From Bdellovibrionales bacterium GWB1_55_8 (GTDB lineage Bacteria > Bdellovibrionota > UBA1018): DNA of 32,277 bases. Below are positions 2,696-32,277 of the stretch, piece by piece (position 1 is the stretch's first letter; each line of letters opens with the position of its first letter). The translations under genes and the position numbers were made by a program. The notes under the pieces are model-generated. The model was not told the DNA's origin, made no database searches, and was given only the letters and a program-made list of their open reading frames with translations. The stretch lies in assembly GCA_001769835.1 (NCBI GenBank), contig MEPR01000021.1:1-32277 (forward strand), in the 5' to 3' direction.

Positions 2696-4147
2696 CTACG
2701 GCCTCCCTGGCAAGCCACCCTGCTTCCGTACAAAATATTCAAGATGGTAAAATCGCTTTTTTTCGCGGACAAATGCGGGATGCTCCTCGAAGAGAGCTAA
2801 GGCTCCTGCATCAGCGCGGGAAATCACGGCATAATCGACCTCATCGGCTATCTTCTTGTCCACTATCCATAAACCAGTCACGATTTTCTTGTCCGCGTAG
2901 GACTGGTGCCCTTTCAAAATCCCATATTCGAAAAGGTACTTTGCCTCAGCGTATACTGCCGGACTGAAGTAGCCTTTTTCGGAGAGCCTCCCTTCCCGTT
3001 CCGCCTCTTGAATCACGCTCAGGGTGTCGGAGTATGGGTCAAACCGAAACATCGAAATGGAGGACAGGAGGGCGGCCGCAGCCATTAAAAATCCCAATAT
3101 TCCGAGGCGAGGTCTTCCCGCTGACTTTCGAAGCAACGGCAACAGGATGGCGACCGACGGTATCAACGAAATGTAGGACGCGATATTCACGGCAATCGTG
3201 AACCGCTGGGTCAAGTACCAGGGATAGTAGCCGGCCATCGACACTGGAATGAAACTCAGATTCAGCAGGACAAGGAACCAGAAAAAAATGCGATGCCGCC
3301 CTTTGAGCGCACCCAGACCACGCTGTGCCGCATAGGCTAAAAAGAAAATGCATTGAAAGAGCGCTTCTGGAACACCGAAATTCACGCGCAGGATGTCGCG
3401 CGTTTCCATCAGGGTCTTGCCTGAAAGAATAAACTGACTGATGTAATCACGATTTTCTGGCAAATGATAAAATAACGGAATCAGGATGGGAACGAAGGGA
3501 AGACAAAGCAAAAACAGCATTCTAAGCGAAAACCGGCGCTGCCCGGCCGTGCTTATCCCGAATGCGAAAACAAATGCGCTGAGCGTGAGAAGAAAACTGT
3601 AACGAGAGGTCGCGAAAAAACTGAGCGCGGCAATCGACAGAAATACACCTGACCGCGAACGTAGCAGACCCGGCCGATAACAAAGATAACTGACCCAGGC
3701 GACTCCGCAGACCTCCATACCATAGGCTCTTGGAAACAGGCTCCATTCGGCAATCACCGGGTTCGTTAACGGGAAAAGCGCAAGAAGTCCCGCCAAGTAC
3801 CTGTCTCGCAATAACAAGACGCCCAGCCGATAAAGAATGAATACTCCCAGACCAAGAAACAAGACCGAGAGCAGCCGAAGCCACACGTGGTTCGTCGAGA
3901 TCAGCGCCCAGTAACGAAGCAGGAACGTAAATCCGCCTGGATCCATATTGCGGGAAAGATTGAGCCTCCAGGCGTCCAGAAACGTTCCTGGTTCGGAAAA
4001 AGGAGGTGACGTATTCGTCAACCCGAGGACGGTGAAGATCATCTGAGCCGGGTCGTAACAGAGGACGGGGTTTGTCACGTTTCCCCAGAGGTAAGCCGCG
4101 AATGCCGCGGCAAACAACGCTATTACAAAAAAGCGCGACTGCATCAT
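2696..4147 (-). CDS. polytopic GT-C-like membrane glycosyltransferase (paralogue of the 11202 gene)
   Basis: The 483-residue protein begins MMQSRFF. The frame extends further upstream, but ATG 4147 overlaps the stop of the preceding mutase gene as ATGA, so translational coupling marks this start. It has about ten or more hydrophobic segments and a soluble C-terminal tail of roughly 120 residues. After the first membrane segment come YLWGNVTNP, then an acidic YDPAQ loop and NMDPGGF. This is the layout of GT-C (PMT/ArnT-type) enzymes, where an Asp in the first external loop is catalytic. The protein at 11202-12686 shares these motifs, plus RYWA.IST, FPLTNP.IA.W and SRYSFLL, and the same C-terminal domain. 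A lipid-linked sugar donor and periplasmic active site are inferred. It could instead be a flippase or polymerase. Confidence 0.7.
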   Translation of the reverse strand: MMQSRFFVIALFAAAFAAYLWGNVTNPVLCYDPAQMIFTVLGLTNTSPPFSEPGTFLDAWRLNLSRNMDPGGFTFLLRYWALISTNHVWLRLLSVLFLGLGVFILYRLGVLLLRDRYLAGLLALFPLTNPVIAEWSLFPRAYGMEVCGVAWVSYLCYRPGLLRSRSGVFLSIAALSFFATSRYSFLLTLSAFVFAFGISTAGQRRFSLRMLFLLCLPFVPILIPLFYHLPENRDYISQFILSGKTLMETRDILRVNFGVPEALFQCIFFLAYAAQRGLGALKGRHRIFFWFLVLLNLSFIPVSMAGYYPWYLTQRFTIAVNIASYISLIPSVAILLPLLRKSAGRPRLGILGFLMAAAALLSSISMFRFDPYSDTLSVIQEAEREGRLSEKGYFSPAVYAEAKYLFEYGILKGHQSYADKKIVTGLWIVDKKIADEVDYAVISRADAGALALFEEHPAFVREKKRFYHLEYFVRKQGGLPGRP

Positions 4148-5505
4148 GGCTTCATGCCACCGACCATTTGGTCGCTCCACTCGATGCCCTGCAAACAGCA
4201 GTGATCCTGATTTCCGTTTTCGTATTTCCACGCGCCAAATCGTCCGCGTGAATAAATCTGAAAACGCTCCAGCGCGGGCAAAATGCCTTTCAGCAGCTGA
4301 TCCCGGTCCAATGAAGGTGTCGGATAGGCGTATTCCGCAAAATGGGACCACAGCGACTCAACATCCGAGCGTGAGCTGATCAGTCCGACCCGGAGCAACC
4401 CGGTGAGAGTCTCTTCAACGATATCGCCGTAAGATACCGGCTTCTCCGGCGATGCGCTCGTTTCCGCCAGCAGTGACCAGTTGTTTTGGGGGTCGGGCAC
4501 CAGCGCGGAACTGTAATTGGATAAAACCGTCACGCGATAAAACGGGCAATCGCCCTCCGGAAAATAGATCCAACTTTTCGTTTTCAATGCTTCCGGCGGC
4601 TTGCCGCGCAAACCCAAACCCACGACATGGCAGGAGGAAAAAAGGAGTTTCCGGGAAAGCTCGCGAACTTCATCAATGACCGGGGACTGCGGCACAAGAC
4701 TCTGACAAAGGAGATTCAGAGGCTTCGTGGAAAGGAGATGCTCGAATTCGATGCACTCTCCTGAGGTCAGCGTGAGACGCCGCTCCACCGGGTTCACGGC
4801 ATCCACGCGGGCACCATAGAGAATACGATCTTGTCCGATCAGTTCGGCCACCGACTTCCAAATCGCGCCGGTCCCACCTGTCTTGGGATATCGAAACCGA
4901 TTATTGGGCCCCCAGGAAACATCATCTTCCCCGTTTGAAAGGGTCTTGCGTATCCGCTCCACATCCGGCGGCGCCACGCGCTCACCGATCCAACGCCAGG
5001 ACAAACGGCTGGGGTGGTAGGCCCAGACCTTTCGGTTATAGGGAAGAAAAAAGGATTCCACCAGCCCGGCTCCGAACCTGTCGACAAGCCAATCGTAGAA
5101 ACTGGCGTCGTCGGGAACAGGAGAATTGCGTCCGGCCGCCGCCTCGAGGTCGTTCAAGCATCGGCTCAGCACAGCTTCCGGCAAATACCGGAGATTGTTT
5201 TGAAGCGGATAAGGAATGAAACTTCCGTGAAGCCGGACGAAAGCCTGGCGTTCATGATGAAGCCAGGAATCATCCCCGATCGCGGCGCGCATGAGATCGA
5301 GAAAAAGAGGATCCCTGGAAAAAAGAATATGCCCGCCGATATCCCACGAGAAGCCCTGCGGGTCGCGGTAAGTTGACGACAAGCCTCCAGCATTTTGTTC
5401 CTGCTCAAGAACGATGAAATCGCGCACGCCCTTTGATTTCAGGCGCCATGCGGCACCCAGACCCGTTGGTCCCGCACCGATAATGACGAACCGATACCGT
5501 TTCAT
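4144..5505 (-). CDS. glf: UDP-galactopyranose mutase, eukaryotic-like class
   Basis: The enzyme interconverts UDP-galactopyranose and UDP-galactofuranose using reduced FAD. The 453-residue protein opens with a Rossmann motif G10-A-G12-P-T-G15 and has WDIGGH (H59, the mobile flavin-site histidine of Aspergillus UGM). It then shows the fungal-type landmarks GERVAPP, WGPNNRFRYP followed by GGTGAIW, YFPEGDCPFYR with SNYS, and near the C-terminus IYSRGRFGAWKYE with GNQDH. These segments match class II (fungal/protozoan) UGM far better than the short Glf of E. coli or the haem enzyme HemY, with which such proteins are often confused. It overlaps by ATGA both the upstream GT2 gene (5502) and the downstream membrane protein (4147), so all three form one operon. 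Confidence 0.85.
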   Translation of the reverse strand: MKRYRFVIIGAGPTGLGAAWRLKSKGVRDFIVLEQEQNAGGLSSTYRDPQGFSWDIGGHILFSRDPLFLDLMRAAIGDDSWLHHERQAFVRLHGSFIPYPLQNNLRYLPEAVLSRCLNDLEAAAGRNSPVPDDASFYDWLVDRFGAGLVESFFLPYNRKVWAYHPSRLSWRWIGERVAPPDVERIRKTLSNGEDDVSWGPNNRFRYPKTGGTGAIWKSVAELIGQDRILYGARVDAVNPVERRLTLTSGECIEFEHLLSTKPLNLLCQSLVPQSPVIDEVRELSRKLLFSSCHVVGLGLRGKPPEALKTKSWIYFPEGDCPFYRVTVLSNYSSALVPDPQNNWSLLAETSASPEKPVSYGDIVEETLTGLLRVGLISSRSDVESLWSHFAEYAYPTPSLDRDQLLKGILPALERFQIYSRGRFGAWKYENGNQDHCCLQGIEWSDQMVGGMKP

Positions 5506-11201: not shown

Positions 11202-12686
11202 ATGGGAATTCTGATGCCAGCTATCAAGCGTACGTTCACCAACAGCTTCTCCTTTAGAGGAGCTTGGGCCTTTTTTTTCGCTGTGCTTATCGTTGGCAGC
11301 TACCTTTGGGGCAACGTCACGAATCCTTTTTTCTGGTTCGATGCGGCGGGACAGCTTTTCATGGCCCTGGGGATGGATCCTTGCGGTCCGCCCTTCGCTG
11401 AAATCGGGTCGTTTTGGAACTCATTGAAACTGAACCTGGGCGGGAACATGGATCCGGGCATGTTCACCATCCTCGTGAGGTACTGGGCCTTTATCTCAAC
11501 ACATCCCGCCTGGCTCAGAATCCTGCCCCTGCTATTTCTGCTTGCCGCACTGGTGCTGATTTTCCGTCTGACGATCAAAGCCACGAATGACCTTTTCCTT
11601 TCAGCAGTGCTCGCGTTTTTTCCGCTCACGAATCCTCTGATCGCTCAATGGGGTTTGAGCCTTCGTGGTTATGCCATGGAAATGTGCGGTGCCGTCCTGG
11701 CGAGCCTGCTCTGCTATGAACCAGAAGTCCTGAAGGACAAACGGCGTCTGATCGGCGCGGTACTGCTCCTCGGGTTCTTTGCCGGATCCCGCTACAGCTT
11801 CCTGCTGGTCATTTTTTCGCTCGGAGCAGCGCTTGCAATCACGCGATTCGAGGAACTCAGGCTCAAGATCTCAAAGCGAATGATCGCGTTCGGGAGCCTC
11901 GCATTGCTTCCAATCGCCATTCCGCTCTCGATGCATGCTCAAACAAAGGTCACCTACATCAGTCGCTTTGTTCTGGCTGGAAAAACGCCACGAGGCTTCT
12001 TCGATATCGTTTTGGCGAACCTCAGCCGGCCTGAAGTGCTCCTTCAAATCGTGTTCGTTCTCGTCTATTCCGCTCTCCTGAAGGGGGACCCGATCAAGAG
12101 ACGTCACCAGACGTTTCTCTATTTTCTTATCTTCGTGAACATCGCCTTCATTGCGGTTTCAATCATCGGAGTTTATCCATGGGTTCTGGACGAACGATAC
12201 ACGATTTCCTTGAATATCGTTTCCTATGTGGCGGCTGCATCCGCCGTCAGCATCATCGCCTCAAAACTGGAACCGAGAAAGGCTCTGTCGGCCGGAGGCT
12301 ACGCCGCATTATGCGCGATCCAGGCGCTGGCAGTTTCGAACTTCAAACTCGACACCTACACGAACACTTACGATAGTCTGGAATGGGCTAAATCCGAGGG
12401 CCTGCTGGAAAACCGTGTCAGCTTTCTAAGCCGCGGAGCTCAAATCGACGCCAGGTACCTCTTCGAACACGGCTATCTGAAAGGCAAGTGGCCGGAATTC
12501 TATCCGGGTGGATTCATCGCCAACAACTCCGACCAGGCTCCGGACGCGAAGACGCTGAGCGGGATCGATCACGCGTTCATCGCTACGGCTGATTACAAGA
12601 TGCTTGCGTATTTTAAACAGCATCCCGATTTCGAGCCCTTGAAAGAGTACAACCACCTTCGGATCTTCAAAAGAAAACGCCACTAG
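11202..12686 (+). CDS. polytopic GT-C-like membrane glycosyltransferase (paralogue of the 2696 gene)
   Basis: This 494-residue protein has many hydrophobic segments and repeats the landmarks of the protein at 2696-4147. They are YLWGNVTNP, an acidic loop FDAAGQ, NMDPGMF, RYWAFIS, FPLTNPLIAQW, SRYSFLL, and a C-terminal domain ending in an ADYKMLAYF..HPDF segment. The shared Asp residues after the first membrane helix are the likely GT-C catalytic site. The start is either ATG 11202 or ATG 11214; the latter has the better ribosome site and would remove four residues. It is divergent from the carbamoyltransferase operon. The two paralogues bracket the glycan cluster in opposite orientation, which suggests an old duplication with sub-functionalisation, for example different sugars or acceptors. 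Confidence 0.7.
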   Translation: MGILMPAIKRTFTNSFSFRGAWAFFFAVLIVGSYLWGNVTNPFFWFDAAGQLFMALGMDPCGPPFAEIGSFWNSLKLNLGGNMDPGMFTILVRYWAFISTHPAWLRILPLLFLLAALVLIFRLTIKATNDLFLSAVLAFFPLTNPLIAQWGLSLRGYAMEMCGAVLASLLCYEPEVLKDKRRLIGAVLLLGFFAGSRYSFLLVIFSLGAALAITRFEELRLKISKRMIAFGSLALLPIAIPLSMHAQTKVTYISRFVLAGKTPRGFFDIVLANLSRPEVLLQIVFVLVYSALLKGDPIKRRHQTFLYFLIFVNIAFIAVSIIGVYPWVLDERYTISLNIVSYVAAASAVSIIASKLEPRKALSAGGYAALCAIQALAVSNFKLDTYTNTYDSLEWAKSEGLLENRVSFLSRGAQIDARYLFEHGYLKGKWPEFYPGGFIANNSDQAPDAKTLSGIDHAFIATADYKMLAYFKQHPDFEPLKEYNHLRIFKRKRH

Positions 12687-19054: not shown

Positions 19055-19834
19055 TCAGGGACTATCGTACTGATTATTCAGGACGATGATTTCGATCCTG
19101 CGGTTGCGGGCTCGCGACCATGCGTCCTTCTTCTCACTCAACGGCCGATAATGAGAATAGCCAGCCACCCCTACCCGCCGGGGGTCCAGGTCAAAACGCT
19201 GTAAAAAATATTTTGCAACCCACGATGCGCGCGCAGTGGACAGCTCCCAGCCACTCGCATAGCCCGCGATGGGCTCTCCAGGATCCGTATGGCCTTCCAC
19301 TCGTACGAGACGCTTGCTGCGAGAGAGTACTCGGCCGATCCGATCCAGCGCCGGCCGGAGATCCGGCACGACAACGGACTGCCCGGGCTCGAAAAAATCT
19401 TTTGCAGCGAGCCGCACGACGAGTCCGCGACTATCGAACTGCATGTGCATTTTTTCGGAGATATCGGAAACCCCGAACTCGAGCGTGATCGACTCCTCAA
19501 GCAGCTCACGAATCTCCTGAAGTTCAGGGTCCGGATCCGCCGCCGTATGGGTTTTTCCAGCCGGCATATTCTGCATGCGTCCGCCCGGCGCCTGGAATTC
19601 CTCGAACTGCTGAACCGTGGCTCCTCCTGAGCTTCCGCTCAAATCAATCATGCCCGCAGGTCCTGCCGAGGCAAACGCGACCTTGATGCTGGCGGCGACT
19701 TTCTTGAACTTCGTCATGTCCGCCTGCGAAATGGCGTACATCACCACGAAAAACGCGAACAGCAGCGTCATGAAATCCGCGTAGGAGACCAGCCAGCGCT
19801 CCAGGTTCACATGTTCGGGGTGCTTTTTCTTCAT
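19055..19834 (-). CDS. motB: flagellar motor stator protein MotB
   Basis: The 259-residue protein has one membrane helix with the proton-binding Asp (D20 in SYADFMTLL). After a periplasmic linker comes an OmpA-like peptidoglycan-binding domain (GHTDPGEP, ELSTARA, SHYRPL, SRARNRRIEIIV). MotB and MotA form the ion channel that powers the flagellum, with MotB anchored to the cell wall. It starts 4 bp after the motA stop, within the flbD-motA-motB operon. Asp20 and the protonation-type residue context suggest H+ rather than Na+ coupling, which cannot be proved by reading. Confidence 0.95.
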   Translation of the reverse strand: MKKKHPEHVNLERWLVSYADFMTLLFAFFVVMYAISQADMTKFKKVAASIKVAFASAGPAGMIDLSGSSGGATVQQFEEFQAPGGRMQNMPAGKTHTAADPDPELQEIRELLEESITLEFGVSDISEKMHMQFDSRGLVVRLAAKDFFEPGQSVVVPDLRPALDRIGRVLSRSKRLVRVEGHTDPGEPIAGYASGWELSTARASWVAKYFLQRFDLDPRRVGVAGYSHYRPLSEKKDAWSRARNRRIEIIVLNNQYDSP

Positions 19835-19837
19835 GGA

Positions 19838-20614
19838 TCAGTGTTTCCCGTCCTGCTCGCCACGGCGAAGATGCTCTTCCACGAACACCTCAAGCTTCTC
19901 CTGCAGGAAATGCGGATTCAAACCTTCCTGAATTCCGACGACACCGAGTTTGACCACTTCCTTGGTCATCATCCTCTGTGCAGCCTTCCGCTTGAGCTTC
20001 GTGCCCATGGGAATCATGACCAGGTTCGCGATACCCACGCCGTAAACAGTTGCAACGAAAGCGACGGCGATACCATCGCCGATCTTGGAAGGGTCACTCA
20101 ACATCGACATGACGTGAATGAGGCCGAGCACGGCTCCGATGATTCCGATCGTCGGAGCGTAGCCGCCGGCGCCTTCCCAGACTTTTCCCGCATTCTCCTC
20201 TTCCTCGAAAGCGATAAAGATTTCCGTATCGATGATTTCCTTAACCGTATTCGGCTCGAAACCGTCGATCACATACTTGATGGATTTCTTGAACAGAGGG
20301 TCCTGAATCGACTCGCGCTGGCCTTCCACCGCAAGAACGCCCTCTTTTCTCGCGATCGTGGCGATCCGGATGATCTCATCGATGGTCGGACGAACATCCA
20401 TATTCACGTTTTTGAATACGGCTGGAATCAGCTTGATCGCGCGTTTGATGTCCTGCATCGGAAATGAGACCAACATGGCTCCGAACGTTCCACCGAACAC
20501 GATCAATGCAGCCGTTCCCTGCATGATTTGCCCGATATGGCCGCCCTCAAGAATCTGCCCGCCGATGATCGCCGCGAATCCCAGAATAATGCCGAAAATT
20601 GATGCTAAATCCAT
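19838..20614 (-). CDS. motA: flagellar motor stator protein MotA
   Basis: The 258-residue protein has the four-helix plan of MotA/PomA. Helix 1 is at the N-terminus (MDLASIFGIILGF), helix 2 follows (GTAALIVFGGTFGAML), and a large cytoplasmic loop carries RKEGVLAVE, the region that meets FliG. The last two helices are around GGYAPTIGIIGAVLGLIHVM and GDGIAVAFVATVYGVG. The conserved prolines of the channel segments are present. The start is ATG 20614, 3 bases after the flbD stop. It assembles with MotB in the inner membrane. Confidence 0.96.
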   Translation of the reverse strand: MDLASIFGIILGFAAIIGGQILEGGHIGQIMQGTAALIVFGGTFGAMLVSFPMQDIKRAIKLIPAVFKNVNMDVRPTIDEIIRIATIARKEGVLAVEGQRESIQDPLFKKSIKYVIDGFEPNTVKEIIDTEIFIAFEEEENAGKVWEGAGGYAPTIGIIGAVLGLIHVMSMLSDPSKIGDGIAVAFVATVYGVGIANLVMIPMGTKLKRKAAQRMMTKEVVKLGVVGIQEGLNPHFLQEKLEVFVEEHLRRGEQDGKH

Positions 20615-22458: not shown

Positions 22459-23520
22459 ATGAATCTGGCGGAACAGAAAAAAATCAAACGGATGCGTTCA
22501 CGGGAGCTATGTCGCGTCCTCGCATTCGCGCTTCTGCCGATTCTCAGCGCCGGCTGTTTAACTCCGCCCAATACGGACAACACCCATCCGATCACCGATC
22601 CGACAGCGACACCGACAATGACTCCGGCCGGCGGTGTTCGTGCGGCGAAAATCATTTTCAAGGTGCCCACGGGCGGAAGCGATAGCGGCAGCTTTGACGC
22701 GCCATCAGGCGCCGGCACGGTACCGGCCGTCGGCCTCGGTCTTCAGGCGACGAGGGTCTTCAATGCTGACGGCTCGCTTCTCTCTGCTGCAGGAGCCGAC
22801 TCTCCGACCTGGCCAAAATGGCTCGCAGGAGTGGAGGTCGGCGTAAGCGGCGCATTGAACACAAAAGCCACAAACAGCAACTGTGCCCGATTCGCCGCGG
22901 CCACCGATGCAGGAGGCAGGTGCTACTCAGGTTCCGAATCCTGGAACTGCAACGCACCCGCTGGTTACTACCGGGTCAGCGAATACGACTGCCTGTATGG
23001 AGCAACCCCCACGACGCAAGCAGGTACGGGCGGAAAAGACGATGGCGTTTACGTCCGGGCTTTCTTCAGTCGCGAGGCCGAGAGCCTGGATCCAAGTGAA
23101 AACATTTTGGCGGTGATCGAGTACAGCGCCTCGGGCATGAACGGTCCGACCGCAGCTGCGAACTGTTTTCCTGGCGGGATATTCAAACCTGAATCCTGCA
23201 ACGAGCTCACGTGGCAGATTTTCCTTCGCGCGAATGCCACTGACTCCGCCGTCCCCCCCTATCTCATGATGATTCCGCCGCTTGTGGGAATGGTGAACAC
23301 CGCCAAGAAACTTGGAGGAACCGGAGTCACCACCCGGCAGGTGATGATCCCCCTGGCTTCGGACACCTCGCTTCAGGTTTTTCAGCTGAGCCGCATCGGG
23401 GCCACTCCGGGAAACCAGACCGAATTTGAAACCACCTGCAGCAATAATAATAACGGAACCGGAAACTCCCCGCTCTGCATGGGAGTGGTTTTGTATTCCA
23501 TCACCTTTTTCAGAATTTAA
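22459..23520 (+). CDS. lipoprotein of unknown function, first gene of the operon
   Basis: The 353-residue protein begins with a basic, long N-region. Its lipoprotein signal peptide ends at ILSAGC, with C33 acylated. A Thr/Pro-rich linker follows. The mature domain is Cys-rich (about ten Cys), which suggests disulfides and exposure outside the cytoplasm. Its C-terminal half (from GYYRVSEYDCLYG, about residue 169) lines up with the C-terminal module of the next gene's product. Both have a GYY...CxY segment, an SLDPSENI/KLGPNENV-type segment and a strand of the form MIPLASD/LIPLSID. It is therefore probably a stand-alone copy of that module. The TAA stop forms part of the next gene's AAGGAG ribosome site. 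Outer-membrane or surface location is inferred. Confidence 0.75.
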   Translation: MNLAEQKKIKRMRSRELCRVLAFALLPILSAGCLTPPNTDNTHPITDPTATPTMTPAGGVRAAKIIFKVPTGGSDSGSFDAPSGAGTVPAVGLGLQATRVFNADGSLLSAAGADSPTWPKWLAGVEVGVSGALNTKATNSNCARFAAATDAGGRCYSGSESWNCNAPAGYYRVSEYDCLYGATPTTQAGTGGKDDGVYVRAFFSREAESLDPSENILAVIEYSASGMNGPTAAANCFPGGIFKPESCNELTWQIFLRANATDSAVPPYLMMIPPLVGMVNTAKKLGGTGVTTRQVMIPLASDTSLQVFQLSRIGATPGNQTEFETTCSNNNNGTGNSPLCMGVVLYSITFFRI

Positions 23521-23532
23521 GGAGAGCACAAA

Positions 23533-26500
23533 GTGATTCGCGAGATCCCAACCAGCCTAAGCAAAATTCGGAGAGCGACCTGGGTTGCGCTCATTGTTTT
23601 GCTCTCGGGCTGCGCGGCTGATTATCGCGGCGAAGCCACTCCCGATACCGCTCCCACGACTAGCCCGCTTGAACTTGAACGGCAGATCGCCGCCAGCGCC
23701 GTGTCCGCGAAGGTATCGTTCCATTTTTCCGATTTTTATTCCCTGATGGCGCCGAATTCAGATACCGGCTGCGCGGGAGATGCGAAAATTTATCATCAAC
23801 CGCTCGTTTTTGACGAATTCACCGGGACAAAGCCCTTCCCGAGCAGTTACTTTGAACCGCTCGCAACCATCAAACCTGATTTCATCAAGAACATTTCTGT
23901 CGACCTGACTGATGCGAATTCCGCTCTTCCGTCCAATCGCGCGGCGGGATGCTCCTATGGAACCGGGATCGGCCTGCCGGCACCCACAAGCTGCGCGACT
24001 TTCGACTATGGAGCCGCTGGCGGCATTACCAGCAGCATGGGCGGTAGCCTGCTGCTGATTGGCGGCAATCAGGGTATCAGCTACGCTTCCGCCCCTTACA
24101 CCTCTTCCCACACCGCGAGTTGCGGAATGATGGATTTGACGGGCACAAAAATCAACTCATGCGCCAGTAACGCGTTTGCGCTCGCCATTGAAACCCTTCC
24201 AGCTTCAGCTGCGACCGATCCGCCCAGTGAGCTTGCACCGGGACTGACTTCCGCTGAAGGACCGATTTCAAGCTGGGTCAATCTCGCGGGAGCCGTCGAT
24301 TTCGCCGGCCCTGATGGAATTTCGGGTGGTGGTGCTGCATTCGATGTCACAGGCAGAAAGCTCCTTCTTTTCGGAGGATCCACCCCTCTGTCATTAAGCG
24401 GTGGAACAACTGCCGGCCTGACGAGTTCCGCAAGCTGGCTCATGGATCTCTCCGATCAGAAATGGACGCACATCCCAGCCTTCGGTAACTCCCAGGTGGA
24501 CACGAAAATTCTGCGGCTTCTGGATGGTGCTTCAGAATTATCGAAAGCCTCTGGAGCACGTATGCTTTTCGGATATGTGGCCGCGCAGGGCACGGCTCTG
24601 AGCAAGATGACCAGCACTTCGACGATCGACGCCAACAACGTGGATCAGACCGATCGGATCGTGATCGTAGGCGGAATAGGATCGTCCGGCGTTCTGAACG
24701 ACGTGCGCCGATTCAACCCGACCTACGGGCCAGACTGGGTGGATACGGATGATGGAGCCACAACTGGACATCGGCAGTGGCTCGACAGCTATCACACACA
24801 ACTTGTGAGTAACTCTTCAAAACCTGCAAGCCAATTCTCACCGGACTTTCCTCCTTCCACCCCCGCCAGTTTGAACACCGCATTGAACTTTGGAACGGTG
24901 GCGCTACGAAACAACCTTGCTACATCCACATCACTTAATATGGGCGAGATCCTCGTTGTCGGCGGCTTTGACAGCTCCACCAATGTGAATACGCCTTCCG
25001 GAACGGATTGTACCGATCTCACGATGTGCGGACGCTTCACGCTGAACCGCAGATCCGATCCGGCGAGCCTGCTGTCGGACGTAAGTAAAAGCGGTTTCGT
25101 TTCCATTCCGAATACGCTTACGGGCGGGGCCGCAACTCCGAGACAATGGAACTCCATTGCTGATACAGGAGCCGGCACGAAATCCGTGCCCTGGTATGGG
25201 GGAGCCACCCTTCTGCCTGGTTTCGATCTTTATCAGAACGATATTGTCTATTTTGGTGGAACGTCGTGCAAAAACTATCTCACCTCAACCGCGGGCTCCT
25301 GCAACTTCAGCAATACCGGCTTTTACTGGAACCTGGAAGAAGACTTGAATGCTTTGGTCGACACGGGAGATGCCACCGATGTGACGTGGGTCACCAATGA
25401 TCAGACCAATTCCCCGTTTCCCACCAGTGCCGGCATGGCTGCGGCGCGAGGCCTCGCACGCGACAATAATGTGATCATCGTCGCGTGGGGTGGCGCAAGT
25501 GCCGCCAAAACTCCCGCTGACCCGAACATTGTCTGGGTCCTTTATGATGCTGATCCTGCCGCTACAACAGACCCGACCTGGCTCAAGCTGCCAGTCACGG
25601 GCGGGCCAACCGGACTTATCAACGCCTCGATGGTTTTCAGCCACGTCACCGGCAATTTTTATCTTTTCGGCGGTTATAATCCGACAACGGATTACTTAAG
25701 CGCGGATATCTGGGAACTTGCCCCCACCAGTGCGTCATGTACTCCGGCATCTTGTACGTTCACCTGGAGTCAGCTGAATACCAGCACTCTTTTCAGCTGC
25801 TATCCAAGTTGCCCGGCCGCTCGCCATTCCCACAGAATGGTTGAGGCAAATTACTTCAACCGAAATCCCGGCGGCGGCGTCGCTTCCAACGGCGAAAGCG
25901 CGTGTACGGCGACCGAACCCTGCTCTTTCGGAATTTTCATGGAAGGCGGCAATCTGAGCAAAACCGGGACAGAACCCGCCGCCGATCGCTGGATGTTTGA
26001 TCCCACCGCAAACGGAGTCGGACAATGGATCCGCATGGGCGAACTTCCCCCTCGCGTACTCCCCGCCATGGCTGGCTTTGAATACAAACTCCCCGATGGC
26101 AACACAGTGATCCGTCGAGCCCTGTTGTTCGGAGGCGAAACCAGCTTCCAAAGCCCCGTGAATACCGTTTCGGGCAAATACTTCGTTGCTCCCACTCTCG
26201 GCGACACCCTGATGTTTGATTTCGATGACAAGTCCTCGGGGAATCCTCTTCAATGGAACCGAGTGGAACTCCTTGGCAAGGGATACCGCGATTCATTTCC
26301 GACCACCCCGGAACGCGACGTTCGCGAAGCGTATGACTCAGATGATCCGACCACGGGAGGTACCACAAACGACCTCTCGGTTCTGTCCCCTCCCCCCCTA
26401 TCGGGCGCCATGATGGTGACCAGAACCCATGATTCGACCAGTGGCTCCCCCACACTGCTGAAGCTTCCTGAGATTTACCTTTTTGGCGGTCGCCAGAAAG

Positions 26501-27789
26501 ATGGAAGCCCGCTGCCTTTGGATCATGTCTACAAATTCTGCCCCGGCACCACGGGAGAAGACGCGGATGCAAAATGCGACTATTTCAACGCGGCAACGAA
26601 CCCGGGCCTGGTCGTACCCACTTCGAAGTATGAAGGCCGCTGGCTGCTGAAAAGACCTGAGAATTCAGACGGCGACATGAATTCCAGACAGGCTTATCTA
26701 GGAGCAGGAACTTACGATTCGGTCCGCGACCGGATCATTCTGGTCGGCGGCATCAATTACGCCGCTGAAGGTGGAAAACGAGCCATCACCCAGGACATTG
26801 ACCACAAAAGCGGAACCATCGACGTCTTTGAGTACACACCATCCATCAAAGCTGCATCGGCACCAGCAGCTGGTGCCGAGAGAAACGGCTCATGGGAAGC
26901 GATTCCGGCTTGTACCGGCGCACTCATTCCTGATCTGCCTGAAGCTCGTTATGGCCACACAGTCAGCTATGACCCGATGAAGCGGAGACTGATCCTCGTG
27001 GGCGGCTATCGAATCAGTAGCGATCCGGTAACCAATGGCGGCCCCCTCCAGCAGGAGATCACGGATTCGAACGGAACCTACAATACGCCCGACGTGTGGG
27101 TTGGAACCCGAATTGATGTCGATGTCAGCGAAAACGAGATTCCGGGCGTTCCCGAGATCACAACAGCGCCCTGCTATTACTGGTCAAAAATTTCCATCTT
27201 CGGCAACACGCGATATGGGGATCCTTCTCAAGGTCCGCCCACCTCCGGCATCGCGCATGCGGCCTCGCTCTATCTGCCTTCGGCCGGGTACAGCACCGGT
27301 TATTACACGATGTTCGACAATGCGTGCGAGTACCAGGGACCGATCGCGAGCACCGAACCATCGATCAACAAACTGCTTGCGGGAGGCGCCTACATCGACA
27401 TTGATCGCAGCAAGCTTGGTCCCAACGAAAACGTTGTTTTGAATCTCACTTACATCCCGTTCGGCACGACAAACCTTCGCCCTGACTCGGTGAATTTTTC
27501 TGAGGCCGAGTCCGCCATATTCAAGGTTCATCTGGTGAAGACGGGGCAAACCGCCGAAGGCATCATGCAGATGTTCCAGCCGCGCTATTTCTCCTACACC
27601 GAATCGGAACAGTTTCCGGAGATAGCACATACGATCTCGGTACTGGCTCCTCCGACAGGACAGGTACGCCAGGACCAATTACTGATTCCGCTTTCAATAG
27701 ACCCCGCCATCGATCGGGTCAGGATCGAACGCTATTCGGGCAGCGGCATTCTGATTGACGCGAGCCTTTTCAGAATGGGGTACCGATGA
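23533..27789 (+). CDS. giant kelch-repeat lipoprotein
   Basis: The 1418-residue protein starts at GTG 23533 with AAGGAG at 23519-23524. The lipobox LLSGC gives C27. The body is a kelch/galactose-oxidase-type beta-propeller region. At least ten 'hydrophobic-GG' motifs (LLLIGGNQ, LLLFGGS, VIVGGIG, ILVVGGFD, IVYFGGT, FYLFGGYN, ALLFGGE, IYLFGGR, IILVGGI, LILVGGY) are spaced about 85-150 residues apart, from residue ~173 to ~1160. That is enough for one large or two smaller propellers. The last 165 residues are a separate module resembling the preceding 353-aa lipoprotein. Kelch propellers bind proteins or glycans. The size, signal and repeats point to a surface adhesin or scaffold; the ligand is unknown. 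It sits second in the operon. Confidence 0.85.
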   Translation: MIREIPTSLSKIRRATWVALIVLLSGCAADYRGEATPDTAPTTSPLELERQIAASAVSAKVSFHFSDFYSLMAPNSDTGCAGDAKIYHQPLVFDEFTGTKPFPSSYFEPLATIKPDFIKNISVDLTDANSALPSNRAAGCSYGTGIGLPAPTSCATFDYGAAGGITSSMGGSLLLIGGNQGISYASAPYTSSHTASCGMMDLTGTKINSCASNAFALAIETLPASAATDPPSELAPGLTSAEGPISSWVNLAGAVDFAGPDGISGGGAAFDVTGRKLLLFGGSTPLSLSGGTTAGLTSSASWLMDLSDQKWTHIPAFGNSQVDTKILRLLDGASELSKASGARMLFGYVAAQGTALSKMTSTSTIDANNVDQTDRIVIVGGIGSSGVLNDVRRFNPTYGPDWVDTDDGATTGHRQWLDSYHTQLVSNSSKPASQFSPDFPPSTPASLNTALNFGTVALRNNLATSTSLNMGEILVVGGFDSSTNVNTPSGTDCTDLTMCGRFTLNRRSDPASLLSDVSKSGFVSIPNTLTGGAATPRQWNSIADTGAGTKSVPWYGGATLLPGFDLYQNDIVYFGGTSCKNYLTSTAGSCNFSNTGFYWNLEEDLNALVDTGDATDVTWVTNDQTNSPFPTSAGMAAARGLARDNNVIIVAWGGASAAKTPADPNIVWVLYDADPAATTDPTWLKLPVTGGPTGLINASMVFSHVTGNFYLFGGYNPTTDYLSADIWELAPTSASCTPASCTFTWSQLNTSTLFSCYPSCPAARHSHRMVEANYFNRNPGGGVASNGESACTATEPCSFGIFMEGGNLSKTGTEPAADRWMFDPTANGVGQWIRMGELPPRVLPAMAGFEYKLPDGNTVIRRALLFGGETSFQSPVNTVSGKYFVAPTLGDTLMFDFDDKSSGNPLQWNRVELLGKGYRDSFPTTPERDVREAYDSDDPTTGGTTNDLSVLSPPPLSGAMMVTRTHDSTSGSPTLLKLPEIYLFGGRQKDGSPLPLDHVYKFCPGTTGEDADAKCDYFNAATNPGLVVPTSKYEGRWLLKRPENSDGDMNSRQAYLGAGTYDSVRDRIILVGGINYAAEGGKRAITQDIDHKSGTIDVFEYTPSIKAASAPAAGAERNGSWEAIPACTGALIPDLPEARYGHTVSYDPMKRRLILVGGYRISSDPVTNGGPLQQEITDSNGTYNTPDVWVGTRIDVDVSENEIPGVPEITTAPCYYWSKISIFGNTRYGDPSQGPPTSGIAHAASLYLPSAGYSTGYYTMFDNACEYQGPIASTEPSINKLLAGGAYIDIDRSKLGPNENVVLNLTYIPFGTTNLRPDSVNFSEAESAIFKVHLVKTGQTAEGIMQMFQPRYFSYTESEQFPEIAHTISVLAPPTGQVRQDQLLIPLSIDPAIDRVRIERYSGSGILIDASLFRMGYR

Positions 27790-28010
27790 AAACAGGAAGT
27801 CAAGGAACACCCCGGTTTTTCCGAAAAATGACCAAGGGTTCGACAGTGCCTCGCCTTTCGACAGATTCAGGGGCACCCGCGCGCCCGAGACAGAGCAGGC
27901 GGATTTACCTGAAAAAACAGGCAAAAACCCCCGAAAGTGTCGAAGTTTTAGACAACTGTCGAGAGTGTACAGGACTTGCAGCAAACAAGGTGCGGGAGGA
28001 GTTCACGTGA
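27786..28010 (+). CDS. possible small translationally coupled ORF
   Basis: A 74-codon frame begins with ATGA overlapping the stop of the kelch gene and ends with GTGA overlapping the GTG start of the next lipoprotein gene. This perfect overlap at both ends is what a translationally coupled operon gene shows. The product is very basic, with no signal peptide, no membrane helix and a CREC motif near its C-terminus, and it is not like any family I know. Much of its length lies in an inverted-repeat region, so it may be a leader-like translated spacer and not a functional protein. The upstream start has no good ribosome site of its own. Confidence 0.35.
   Translation: MKTGSQGTPRFFRKMTKGSTVPRLSTDSGAPARPRQSRRIYLKKQAKTPESVEVLDNCRECTGLAANKVREEFT
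27839..27963 (+). repeat. long imperfect inverted repeat between operon genes
   Basis: TTCGACA occurs at 27839-27845 and again at 27857-27863. Their complements occur at 27938-27944 (TGTCGAA) and 27956-27962 (CTGTCGA). Further pairing of TTC with GAA and GGGG with CCCC extends the inner stem. The outer and inner 7-bp stems are separated by an internal loop of about 11 bases, and the apical loop is about 57 bases. It lies inside the operon and could be an mRNA processing or attenuation structure, or paired binding sites 18-19 bp apart. Confidence 0.5.
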
Positions 28011-29830
28011 ACGTTCGGCACACTTCAAAGAAAGCGATCCGGGAAATCGGGGCATTGCTCCCGGTTGCGCTTTCGTGTGCCGTCCTGCTATCCGCCTGTA
28101 CAAACAACTTCCTGACCGCCGGGGGCGGCATCGATCCGAACGCGCTTCGAGCGCCTGCCGCAGTTTCAGATCAAGGGGACTCCTCCCTCGTGGTTTCCAG
28201 AATCGCCAAGAGCGCCGTGGACCCTTCAGGATCATTCGATCTCATCGGAGACGGTACGGGCACCATGTCTCAGTACTGTTTTTCGGAAACTGAAGGATCC
28301 GCAGGCGAAAGCAATTGCCGCTGCGAGTACAGCTTTATCCTTCCGGACGGAAATTCCAACAGCTTCGATGTCGCGACTTCCTATCATGATGCCAACATGA
28401 TTCGCTGCCGTTTCGCTGATGCGCCGGGAATCCCGGCAAGCGTCTCATCGGTCAACGTAAGGATCCTTCTCTCGAATTCCCAAACCTACTCCAATACGCT
28501 TCGAGTGAAGATGACCGGCACAGGAACCGCGCTTGACCTCTCGGACCCGCTCAGCTTCACCCAGGCTGAGCGCTATCAGTGCCGCGACATCGTGAACGTC
28601 CCGTATCTGTTTGATGGAAACATCATGGACCCGGTGGTCTCCGATGATCCTAAAATATCCTACCCGCTGAACTTCTACACGACGAACATGGGTGGGAGCC
28701 TGGCTCTGTTCGTGAAGCAAGGCTCCGCGGTGAGCAACTGGAATTGTCCCTCCATCCCGAACGACAGCGCCAGCGATGCGGGACTGGATCTGACGGTCTA
28801 CAGCCTGGGACCCGACGAGACCGGAAGCAAACAGATTTTCCCCGCGAAAAGCGGATTTGACCGCTCCACTTTTTACCTAGCCCGCTCCAATACCGGCATT
28901 TTCAATGTGCCGGTTCATGCATTCACTGCTCCGACAATCACGACGGGCGTGAACGAACTGCCGGCCCTGGGCTATGGTGCCGCGCCGGTTCCGACGACAA
29001 ACGGCGAGACATGCCCTGACACTGATCCTTCCGTGATCATTCCGTCAGGATATGAATGGGTGAAAGTATGGCTCTTCCGCGCGAATCTGGCGCCTCGCGA
29101 GTACCAGGCCAACGCGGGTCTGAAGACAATCGGAGGCATCGGCTGCAATCCCGGAAAATTCCCGGTATCTCAGGAACAGATATTTCCTGACTGCAAAGAC
29201 CTTCCCACCATGAGCGATGCCCTCAACGCGACTGGCCGGCCGGCTGCACGGGTACTTCTCGGCACGGGCATGTGCATGAGCCTCCGCGGGGAGTTCCCTC
29301 CCTGCAGCGCCAACGGCCGCGTGGATGGTCCGGGCTGCACTTCTCAGAGCATGACCGCCCAATACCCGGACAAAACGATGTTCGCTCCTGGAACTGACGT
29401 CTGGGCGACATCGGGCAATGCCACCCCCTATTCCTGCGGCGGTTCCAATGCCACGGACCTTCTGAATCTCTGCACGGAAGCGTTCCCCGTGCCGCATACG
29501 ACTGAACTGACCCCTAAAACGATGGACCAGGATGGCGGGCGGTTTGACTTCCTTTTTGTCGTGACTCCGCCAACCGTCACGACCAATACCATGAAAAATC
29601 TCTCGAGTTCCGCCAGCCACGCCTACATTCCTTATCGTTACCGGCCCGGAGATTGCGCATCCCCCGATCCTGATAATCCCGTGACGGATGGCGATTGCGA
29701 TGGCTCGAAGAGAATCACCTATGGATTAAAACTCCACGATGTCATCAGCAACGGTGACCCGCCGGCCTCGAATCAGAACCGCGCAGGCGTATTTCCGGTA
29801 TGCACAATCCGGCCAAAAGGTGGATCATGA
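28007..29830 (+). CDS. Cys-rich lipoprotein, paralogue of the next gene
   Basis: The 607-residue protein starts at GTG 28007, set by GGGAGGAG at 27994-28001 with a 5-base spacing. The frame extends further upstream to 27755, but that would put 84 residues before the signal peptide. The lipobox LLSAC gives C31. The N-terminal domain contains CRCEYSF followed by NMIRCRFAD and then RYQC. The protein at 29827 shows the same order (CLCQFSW, NMVSCAAPD, RYTC). The rest holds many Cys in pairs (GCNPG, MCMS, CSANG, CTSQ), suggesting an extensively disulfide-bonded extracellular protein. No known domain is recognised. Its TGA overlaps the ATG of the next gene. Confidence 0.75.
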   Translation: MNVRHTSKKAIREIGALLPVALSCAVLLSACTNNFLTAGGGIDPNALRAPAAVSDQGDSSLVVSRIAKSAVDPSGSFDLIGDGTGTMSQYCFSETEGSAGESNCRCEYSFILPDGNSNSFDVATSYHDANMIRCRFADAPGIPASVSSVNVRILLSNSQTYSNTLRVKMTGTGTALDLSDPLSFTQAERYQCRDIVNVPYLFDGNIMDPVVSDDPKISYPLNFYTTNMGGSLALFVKQGSAVSNWNCPSIPNDSASDAGLDLTVYSLGPDETGSKQIFPAKSGFDRSTFYLARSNTGIFNVPVHAFTAPTITTGVNELPALGYGAAPVPTTNGETCPDTDPSVIIPSGYEWVKVWLFRANLAPREYQANAGLKTIGGIGCNPGKFPVSQEQIFPDCKDLPTMSDALNATGRPAARVLLGTGMCMSLRGEFPPCSANGRVDGPGCTSQSMTAQYPDKTMFAPGTDVWATSGNATPYSCGGSNATDLLNLCTEAFPVPHTTELTPKTMDQDGGRFDFLFVVTPPTVTTNTMKNLSSSASHAYIPYRYRPGDCASPDPDNPVTDGDCDGSKRITYGLKLHDVISNGDPPASNQNRAGVFPVCTIRPKGGS

Positions 29831-32154
29831 GCAAGATGCATCCGAAAATCCTCATCGCCGCCATGGTTGTCCTGAGCGCTTGCACGAACTCGCGCCTTGT
29901 TCCCAAGTCGATCAAGGACGCTAACATCACCACTGAACCGGACAGCGGCTCCACCAGCAGCTATCGGATCTCCAACGTGACCGTCGCAAATCAGGCGGAG
30001 GTTCCGACCTTTTCCGTGTTTTTCGATTCCTCTTCACTACCCAGCCCGATTACCGACAACTGCAGCACCAAATCGAGCAACACTGTCGCCGAAAAACCCT
30101 GTCTGTGTCAGTTCAGCTGGCAACAGGTGAACCCCTTCTCTTCAAATTCGAGTCCCGTTCAACGGCTGATCTTCACGCCTGTCATCACGGTTCAATCGAA
30201 CATGGTGAGCTGCGCAGCTCCCGACATTTATTCAAAAGACAATGAGGTTCCGGTCGGCACGGCCCTTAATGTCAGCATTGTCTCGGCATCGGGCAGCCCC
30301 ATGAACTTTGCGACGACGCAATACAAGCACACGAAAAATTCAGGCAACACGTCTGGCGGGAGCTTTCAGGATGCGCAGGGCCGGTACTTCGACGACATTC
30401 TTCGGTACACCTGCTTCGAACAATTCCAGCGAGGAATGAGCATTACCAGCAAGCCTTGGCCGGTGGAGGGCGGCTCTCAGAATGAACAGGTCAAGGTACC
30501 CCTCGCCTCCCAGTTCTGCGTCGCGAAGTCGAGCGGAGCGGAAGGCGGCGTTGAGAATTGCACCAACATTCCCGCCAAGGAAAACTCAGCTCAGGCCTAT
30601 TACTACAATCTTTACACCCGCGAGAGCGAACTCGGCGGCATCAATTACGCGAATCAGCGGTATGTCTGCCCGAGAGTGAAAGAACCGCTCATCACCGGCA
30701 TGGGGCCAGGCCATCACTGGCCTCTGGACAGCAGCTTCGCGCTTTCATTGGGTCCCACCTCCGATTTTCCGATCGGCGTTGAAGCATTCACGAAACTGGC
30801 GAATGGCGCGACCGATGCCGGCAGCCAGGGCTCGGTTTGCTACCCGCCGCAATCACAGGGTAGCACTGATGATGACGCGGGTGAGGTACCTGTTGAAAAC
30901 AACGATACACTCGTCAGATCCTGTCTGGGATTTGCCGCGAAACCCAATACGGATGGAACGTGCCCCTACTTCAAGGACTCAACCGGACACGTCCGCCACA
31001 CCTTCCGCTTGCGGAGGTTCATGGCACTTTACCCCGCCGTTTTCGACTCGAGCGGCGCCCCCATGAATCAAGCCCAGGCGATGGATACGATCTATGTTCT
31101 GGATCGCCCGGTGTACTTCGATGGCGCGGATGTAAACAAACCTTATACCATGCGCGGACCGAAACCCTGTCCGTTCGCCTTCTTCGATCATAAAGGCGTG
31201 ATCGGTGTTCCCGACGCCCTCTATCCCGGAGGAGTTCGCCCGGTCTATGCCGGCACGAACAATTCGGGCTGGCGTGGAAAAAACGTGGATGGAATTCAAC
31301 TTCCAAATACGGATTCCGTGAATTCCTGCGCAGCCGTCCTGCCGGTCTTCAATGATGACCTGAGCATTCTCTCGCTGGCGACGGTACATCAGGCAAGCCC
31401 CGTCTACAAATCAGTGCATATTCGGCCGGTGCGGCCGTGGTCTCCCCATTATGTGGAAGACACGGATTTCCTGGCTTGCGCTCCGCAGTCGAACGTCTTG
31501 AGAGATCCACCTCTTCATTTCGCGAAAGACACGACGACGGGAAACATCGGCTGGTGCGCCGAAGCTTATCCGACACAGAACGACAATGTTGCCGCCCTGG
31601 ATAAACGGCCGGATATCAACTCCAACTATTTCGGAAAAGTGCAGCCCTTCACATCCCATGTGGTGAAAAACACGGCAAGTGTCGAGTGCACAGCACAACA
31701 ACTCACCTCTATTCCATCCGCCTATCCGCCAGTGACCGGTAACGCATGTCCGGCTTATCCCGGCACCGGAAATCCGACCTCGCTGGCGAATCACCCCGAG
31801 GATCTGGTAGTCGATCAGGCGCCGAACGCCGCGGGAACCCCGCAGAATGTTTGCGCGCAGAAAACCTGCGATCGAACAGTCACGAACCAGGCGCTGACCT
31901 GGCCGAAATTCCCGCTTCTCGCACCCCCCGGCGACGTGGAAAAGGCGCTTATTTCGGATACCACCTACGGTTGCGTCCTGACTTACGACAATGGAAGCGG
32001 GAAAACAGGTAAACAGTCGCCCAGCGAAGGCTGCTGTGGCCTGAACGTTTCCATGCTCACCGGCATTCCCGAAAGCGGGGAAACGAACGCATCCATGACC
32101 AACTTGAACGCCCACCTTGAACCGGATCAGCGCTGTCTGATTCCGAAATACTGA
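29827..32154 (+). CDS. Cys-rich lipoprotein, paralogue of the preceding gene
   Basis: The 775-residue protein starts at ATG 29827 (ATGA overlap with the previous stop, AAGGTGG ribosome site just upstream). An earlier in-frame ATG at 29800 only adds nine polar residues. The signal peptide ends at VVLSAC, with C19 acylated. The N-terminal domain repeats the CxCxF/Y, NMxxC and RYxC pattern of the preceding protein. The C-terminal part is longer, with many Cys and Pro residues and a CCGLN near the end. The protein is probably exposed on the outer membrane. No enzyme motif is visible. Its TGA (32152-32154) overlaps the next gene's ATG by one base. Confidence 0.75.
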   Translation: MSKMHPKILIAAMVVLSACTNSRLVPKSIKDANITTEPDSGSTSSYRISNVTVANQAEVPTFSVFFDSSSLPSPITDNCSTKSSNTVAEKPCLCQFSWQQVNPFSSNSSPVQRLIFTPVITVQSNMVSCAAPDIYSKDNEVPVGTALNVSIVSASGSPMNFATTQYKHTKNSGNTSGGSFQDAQGRYFDDILRYTCFEQFQRGMSITSKPWPVEGGSQNEQVKVPLASQFCVAKSSGAEGGVENCTNIPAKENSAQAYYYNLYTRESELGGINYANQRYVCPRVKEPLITGMGPGHHWPLDSSFALSLGPTSDFPIGVEAFTKLANGATDAGSQGSVCYPPQSQGSTDDDAGEVPVENNDTLVRSCLGFAAKPNTDGTCPYFKDSTGHVRHTFRLRRFMALYPAVFDSSGAPMNQAQAMDTIYVLDRPVYFDGADVNKPYTMRGPKPCPFAFFDHKGVIGVPDALYPGGVRPVYAGTNNSGWRGKNVDGIQLPNTDSVNSCAAVLPVFNDDLSILSLATVHQASPVYKSVHIRPVRPWSPHYVEDTDFLACAPQSNVLRDPPLHFAKDTTTGNIGWCAEAYPTQNDNVAALDKRPDINSNYFGKVQPFTSHVVKNTASVECTAQQLTSIPSAYPPVTGNACPAYPGTGNPTSLANHPEDLVVDQAPNAAGTPQNVCAQKTCDRTVTNQALTWPKFPLLAPPGDVEKALISDTTYGCVLTYDNGSGKTGKQSPSEGCCGLNVSMLTGIPESGETNASMTNLNAHLEPDQRCLIPKY

Positions 32155-32277
32155 TGAAAGAGACTTTCGAGATCATCGTGAACCCGCCCGAGGAGCGCCT
32201 GGACCTGGCGCTTCTCGGAAAACTCCGCGAAAGAATGCCTGATCTCTCACGCCTTGCCGTCAAAAAGCTTTTTGCCG
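32154..32277 (+). CDS. RluA-type pseudouridine synthase, N-terminal part (cut by window end)
   Basis: ATG 32154 overlaps the previous stop as TGATG. The 41 visible residues contain RLDLALLGKLRERMPDLSR followed by LAVKKLF. This is the opening of an S4 RNA-binding domain, as found before the catalytic domain in RluC/RluD-type 23S rRNA pseudouridine synthases. The catalytic domain lies outside the window. If it is transcribed with the lipoprotein operon, it would be a housekeeping gene riding on a motility-type promoter, or it has its own promoter inside the lipoprotein gene. Confidence 0.6.
   Translation, partial: MKETFEIIVNPPEERLDLALLGKLRERMPDLSRLAVKKLFA

Follow-up and report, generated by a model that had tools for sequence, protein, structure and literature searches.

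Two paralogous pairs of lipoproteins, one of them split by a kelch insert at a fixed site, form a conserved gene block in an uncultured order of Bdellovibrionota

The stretch of DNA analysed here (the window) comprises the 32,277 nucleotides at positions 1-32277 of the 153,552-base contig C21 from Bdellovibrionales bacterium GWB1_55_8 (genome G000), and carries four genes, P1 to P4, which code for lipobox-bearing proteins that fall into two paralogous pairs, P1/P2 (type A) and P3/P4 (type B). The type-A module of P2 is split by a kelch insert that always occupies the same site and that, across relatives, is found in an empty, a ~7-repeat and a 12-repeat state. The block is specific to one order, belongs to an extended locus and is present or absent as a unit, leaving an empty site in some genomes. 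The best fit is that P1-P4 would form an outer-membrane recognition or adhesion complex, a reading based on sequence and predicted structure that we hold tentatively, at a little under an even chance.

P1 (22459..23520, forward strand) codes for a lipoprotein of 353 aa, P2 (23533..27789) for one of 1418 aa, P3 (28007..29830) for a Cys-rich lipoprotein of 607 aa with 19 Cys, and P4 (29827..32154) for another of 775 aa with 24 Cys, all on the same strand. Each contains a signal peptide followed by a lipobox (SAGC, LSGC, LSAC and LSAC at residues 33, 27, 31 and 19, respectively; pattern used, [LVI][ASTVI][GAS]C), which is recognisable in most of their relatives, and the residues at position +2 are L, A, T and T. 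An earlier note on this DNA had described four lipoproteins packed with stop/start overlaps; the four lipoproteins were found as described, and the only overlap among them is that of P3 and P4 (4 nt, ATGA, 29827-29830), P1 and P2 being 12 nt apart and P2 and P3 217 nt apart.

The two pairs are clearly supported when family profiles are compared. Direct BLASTP pairs residues 169-312 of P1 with 1256-1400 of P2, at the place the note had pointed to, with an E value (0.59) that is not significant alone, and for this reason profiles built from relatives were used; hhalign then aligns the P1 and P2 families with a probability of 98.3 and an E value of 1.8e-14 over 226 columns. The note had seen this similarity in the last ~165 residues of P2, a stretch that does align, and it extends further, to cover all of P1. 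P3 and P4, proposed as Cys-rich paralogues, are already related by BLASTP (E 4e-4), and their profiles match over 320 N-terminal columns (E 7.3e-12) in an alignment that contains the CxC, NM..C and RYxC motifs in that order; the type-B module spans residues ~31-371 of P3 and ~19-411 of P4. With 30 column-shuffled controls per pair, the best E values were 0.13 (P1/P2) and 0.082 (P3/P4), and comparisons across pairs (P1-P3, P1-P4) gave probabilities below 1%. No Pfam family above noise was found for P1, P3, P4 or the short P2 of relatives (27 members of P3 and 28 of P4 were scanned), and none of the five families, which include the neighbouring P0, matches NCBIfam, so that, apart from the kelch repeats, they have no entry in either database.

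The earlier note pictured P2 as a giant propeller subunit ending in the same module as P1. Instead, the module is split and the propeller region lies within it. The N-terminal type-A half (residues 27-158, 23611..24006, forward strand) ends in CATFD, the insert (residues 159-1255, 24007..27297) contains 12 hhhhGG kelch motifs, and the C-terminal half (residues 1256-1418, 27298..27786) starts with GYYTMFD. Many relatives have a P2 of just ~340 aa, in which the same loop, between residues 158 and 1256 of the P2 analysed here, contains 8-45 residues instead of ~1,100; the sequence of the long P2 as far as ~160 and that from ~1250 onwards match the two neighbouring halves of these short proteins. 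The junction is sharp, since the window reads CATFD[~1,100 residues]GYYTMFDNAC where the locus L027 reads CATFDTEATYDTGFYTFLDHRC. The insert exceeds the curated Pfam cut-offs of several kelch families, including Kelch_2 (42.5 bits vs 21.3; E 4.9e-11 for P2) and Kelch_KLHDC2_KLHL20_DRC7 (54.4 bits vs 50), and its 12 motifs, which keep a similar spacing in relatives and would fit two six-bladed rings, cannot be ascribed to an assembly artefact, because the same site is occupied in many genomes from different projects.

Other states of this site are found outside the family of the window genome (f1). In family f2 (L130) a P2 of 956 aa carries ~7 repeats at the same position (six recognised by a regular expression and the seventh, ILIGGYG, by eye), and in family f5 the site is occupied by a Pro/Thr-rich linker. 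Mapped by parsimony on a tree of P3 and P4, the presence of kelch requires three changes, compared with a mean of 11.8 for shuffled labels (none of 500 shuffles as low), counts that rest on a quick-method tree with several weak branches. One reading of this history is a single gain followed by at least two clean losses within f1; alternatively, the insert could have been gained three times, or could be older and have been lost more often.

Single-protein and profile searches show that these genes are nearly confined to one uncultured order of the class UBA1018 (Bdellonasia). P4 was found in 46 of its 55 genomes, P3 in 44 (plus one weak match at class level) and the P2 core in 40, neither P4 nor the P2 core being detected in the other 314 Bdellovibrionota genomes; absence from draft metagenome-assembled genomes (MAGs) may reflect incompleteness. 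Wherever they are found, in most genomes of the order, P3 or P4 are single-copy. Contigs bearing the same loci are named as MAGs of uncultured Bdellovibrionales, Oligoflexia and Bacteriovoracaceae, including CAIRTR01 and UBA1018, and both the window genome and CAIRTR01 (G018) belong to f1, from which the window would fall in the same class as this genus. A paper of 2026 (PMC13200544) assigns the genus CAIRTR01 to UBA1018 of GTDB, a class that now bears the name Bdellonasia and is the sister of Bacteriovoracia; members of Bdellonasia are described there as probably predatory and equipped with a Kil system, and some of them as magnetotactic.

The gene order P1-P2-P3-P4 recurs in these relatives, in agreement with the adjacency that the note had anticipated. 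The note placed the locus at 22459-32154, an interval that does contain the four genes; the wider unit starts with a divergent motB-motA pair, continues with P0 and P1-P4 and ends with rluA. MotB (19055..19834, reverse strand), a proton-channel stator protein with an OmpA-like C-terminus (Pfam MotB_plug 7.6e-21, OmpA 1.1e-13), and its stator partner MotA (19838..20614, reverse strand; MotA_ExbB 9.6e-28) are divergent to P0 (20883..22343, forward strand), a 486-aa protein with ~3 N-terminal transmembrane segments predicted by hydropathy and a conserved soluble domain with the motif PYEKGPPS. Downstream, P4 shares 1 nt (TGATG) with a gene for an rluA-type pseudouridine synthase (32154..32277, forward strand, continuing past the window to ~33092; L022 ORF 10154-11092, PseudoU_synth_2 7.5e-18), which is followed by a convergent nrdJ; the L022 sequence of rluA is partly masked (N) and hence incomplete. 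P0 is present in 48 of the 55 genomes and also in two genomes of the sister family f7, from the same class, and in some f5 genomes it occurs in two copies.

Variation at the locus suggests how it may have been assembled. Three loci (L143, L144 and L145) lack the P1-P4 block and P0 runs straight into rluA. Partial arrangements are P0-P3-P4-rluA (L035) and P0-P3 (L047), the P1 profile having no match in either genome. In f5 the four genes remain together, away from P0 and flanked by aminopeptidase/ComM/ComEC-like genes, and four genomes of this family (L044:4253-6796, L045, L046 and L050) have an additional lipoprotein immediately 3' of P4, in which Laminin_G_3 and Ig-like domains are recognised. 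In f7, P0 is followed in G056 by two tandem P3-like lipoproteins of ~410 aa (L128:5582-8054; hhalign to P3, E 1.6e-7 and 2.4e-4); the pair recurs in G055, where a fragment of P0 immediately precedes it. Since f7 has only P0 and this tandem pair, the system looks built in layers, which suggests that P0 with a tandem type-B pair came first, the P1/P2 pair second and the kelch insert last, although this order is deduced rather than observed. Both P3-like proteins of G056 end near a C-V-I-P motif, which resembles the CLIP found close to the P4 C-terminus.

The AlphaFold2 model of P1 (18 sequences; predicted local distance difference test, pLDDT, 82; predicted TM-score, pTM, 0.83) is mostly beta and would be a beta-sandwich, and its sole Foldseek match in PDB below 1e-3 was the K3 adhesin domain of Lys-gingipain (E 9e-4), weaker matches being carbohydrate-binding modules, legume lectins, a MAM domain and Cry beta-sandwiches; no match below 1e-3 was found among viral models. 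The model of P3 (pLDDT 72, pTM 0.59) is confident and beta-rich in its N-terminal part. At the level of sequence, PDB contains no match for P1 or P2, and those of P3 are at chance level.

According to the preferred reading, P1-P4 would be outer-membrane lipoproteins acting jointly as one surface complex that recognises and holds an external target, be it a glycan, particle or prey cell. In this view P3 and P4, the Cys-rich pair, would be the old scaffold, the beta-sandwich modules of P1 and P2 would have joined later and, in the lineage of the window, the 12-repeat propeller region on the P2 loop would serve as an exchangeable binding head. Recognition or adhesion is the best fit because it accommodates four lipoproteins, Cys-rich beta domains, a removable module, occasional lectin-type additions and the presence or absence of the genes as a block. 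An outer-membrane location is suggested by the lack of Asp at +2, a sorting rule that derives from E. coli, and the folds are presumably extracytoplasmic and stabilised by disulphides. The four proteins may associate physically, and a surface assembly is plausible; a binding role would agree with the adhesin/carbohydrate-binding-type beta-sandwich, the kelch repeats, the Ig-like hints and the lectin-domain lipoprotein appended in some relatives. The probably predatory habit of the class, with its Kil system, and the swapped-tip surface fibres by which Bdellovibrio recognises prey also speak for it. Several observations weigh against this proposal. The fold matches of P1 are weak (query-normalised TM-score <=0.36) and hint at a fold class only; P3 has no significant fold match in PDB, the best being Ig, FN3 and NF-kB TIG-like domains with E values of 0.04 or worse; the kelch region does not clearly evolve faster than the N-terminal core of P2; several relatives, including G021 and G004, keep P3-P4 without P1-P2; and adhesion alone leaves the conserved link with MotAB and P0 unexplained.

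This link is the basis of the main rival explanation, a trans-envelope machine in which MotAB would use ion flow, P0 would relay it across the periplasm and P1-P4 would be a stationary or driven outer ring, the lipoproteins thus being the outer-membrane end of either a flagellar-motor accessory or a gliding-type surface drive. In f3, and in most of the f1 loci whose flanks are long enough, the motBA pair lies beside P0 and diverges from it, and in f5 P0 has a MotA as its neighbour; moreover, P0 lies directly upstream of the P3-like lipoproteins in both f7 genomes and of P1-P4 in f1, and the window MotA is one of two in the genome, the other being on contig C91. However, MotAB and P0 are kept in L143 and L144, which lack P1-P4, and P0 and the lipoprotein genes are at separate loci in f5, f6 and f3. 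In addition, divergent neighbours may have functions that are not shared, and a motor ring needs neither kelch nor lectin-like domains. We consider this explanation unlikely, albeit the strongest competitor. Less probable still would be an envelope machine peculiar to the class and powered by ions, with MotAB and the membrane protein P0 acting on lipoproteins that are assembled at the outer membrane, were added in layers and present an exchangeable kelch head.

Similarly improbable is a surface complex that captures glycans for uptake in the manner of SusD/E/F-type surface lipoproteins, which would agree with the resemblance of the type-A fold to carbohydrate-binding modules and with the Laminin_G_3 lipoprotein of some relatives, but MotAB and rluA are the neighbours that are conserved, and among those examined, of which only some were covered by profile scans, neither a TonB-dependent receptor nor a glycoside hydrolase was recognised. 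Least probable of all is that the four genes are co-transcribed lipoproteins with separate functions, whose order is conserved through slow rearrangement only: in G013 P1-P2 are separated from P3-P4 by ~20 kb, in G035 the two pairs lie on different contigs, and the P3-P4 genomes G021 and G004 also favour it, but the four genes stay together between flanks as different as those of f5 and the P0/rluA of f1, and the whole block is gone as a unit in three genomes.

The window has several other features. An open reading frame of 74 aa (27786..28010, forward strand), which holds a CxxC and bridges P2 and P3 with 4-nt overlaps on each side, lacks both relatives in the other loci and a Pfam match; it was ruled out as a fifth gene of the block on account of this lack of conservation, and it is probably not a conserved gene. 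Further upstream, two apparently related membrane proteins (2696-4351, reverse strand, and 11202-12686, forward strand), with an LWGNVTNP stretch near both N-termini, enclose a cluster that includes genes for a carbamoyltransferase and for a glycosyltransferase-like protein. Between 12780 and 16530 there are two adjoining proteins of unknown function, of 475 and 777 aa, of which the latter may be a lipoprotein and shows a single weak EF-hand-like match.

The P3/P4 part of the system is present in most members of an uncultured and probably predatory lineage. The proposed layers (a P3/P4-type pair, a P1/P2 pair and a propeller that enters or leaves at one loop) would show with unusual clarity how a surface complex can grow step by step, and sister genomes with and without kelch offer a natural comparison for the role of the propeller, e.g., in prey range. 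A functional link between MotAB and P0 would, for its part, indicate an energised envelope structure of a new kind.

Compared with known systems, the locus shares with MotAB-linked envelope systems (flagellar stators and their periplasmic partners) a neighbouring MotAB with an OmpA-type MotB, but P0 matches no Pfam or NCBIfam family and we know of no stator partner that is an operon of kelch or Cys-rich lipoproteins. The P2 insert passes the cut-offs of the kelch beta-propellers (Kelch_2, Kelch_3 and Kelch_4), although here all 12 motifs sit in one insert, within a loop of a lipoprotein that is otherwise an unrelated beta-sandwich and lacks a sequence match in PDB. The type V (FimA/Mfa1) pili of Bacteroidota are surface structures built by operons of several paralogous lipoproteins, a feature shared with P1-P4, but they belong to another phylum, and no FimA or Mfa1, with their two-domain transthyretin-like fold, is among the top 50 Foldseek matches of P1 or P3. 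A search of the literature for kelch and lipoproteins in Bdellovibrio, and for operons of kelch outer-membrane lipoprotein adhesins, retrieved no paper. The tip complexes of Kil/Tad pili are also multi-subunit, variable recognition complexes of predatory bacteria (PMC12075869); they consist, however, of minor pilins with an alpha1N helix and a prepilin peptidase site, and the words lipoprotein, kelch and propeller are absent from that paper, whereas P1-P4 have lipoboxes instead of a prepilin leader and beta folds are predicted for P1 and P3, so that they were rejected as minor pilins of this kind. The mosaic adhesive trimer (MAT) proteins of Bdellovibrio bacteriovorus form modular surface fibres with swapped tips for prey recognition (PMC10769870). 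In structure they are trimeric beta-prisms like those of phage fibres, and an S74 protease domain is present in some; the text that describes them mentions neither lipoproteins nor kelch or propellers, and on this anatomy P1-P4 were rejected as MAT members; the likeness is one of concept only, taken from the description, in that both would be surface proteins of a predator of the Bdellovibrionota in which a conserved base carries exchanged binding tips.

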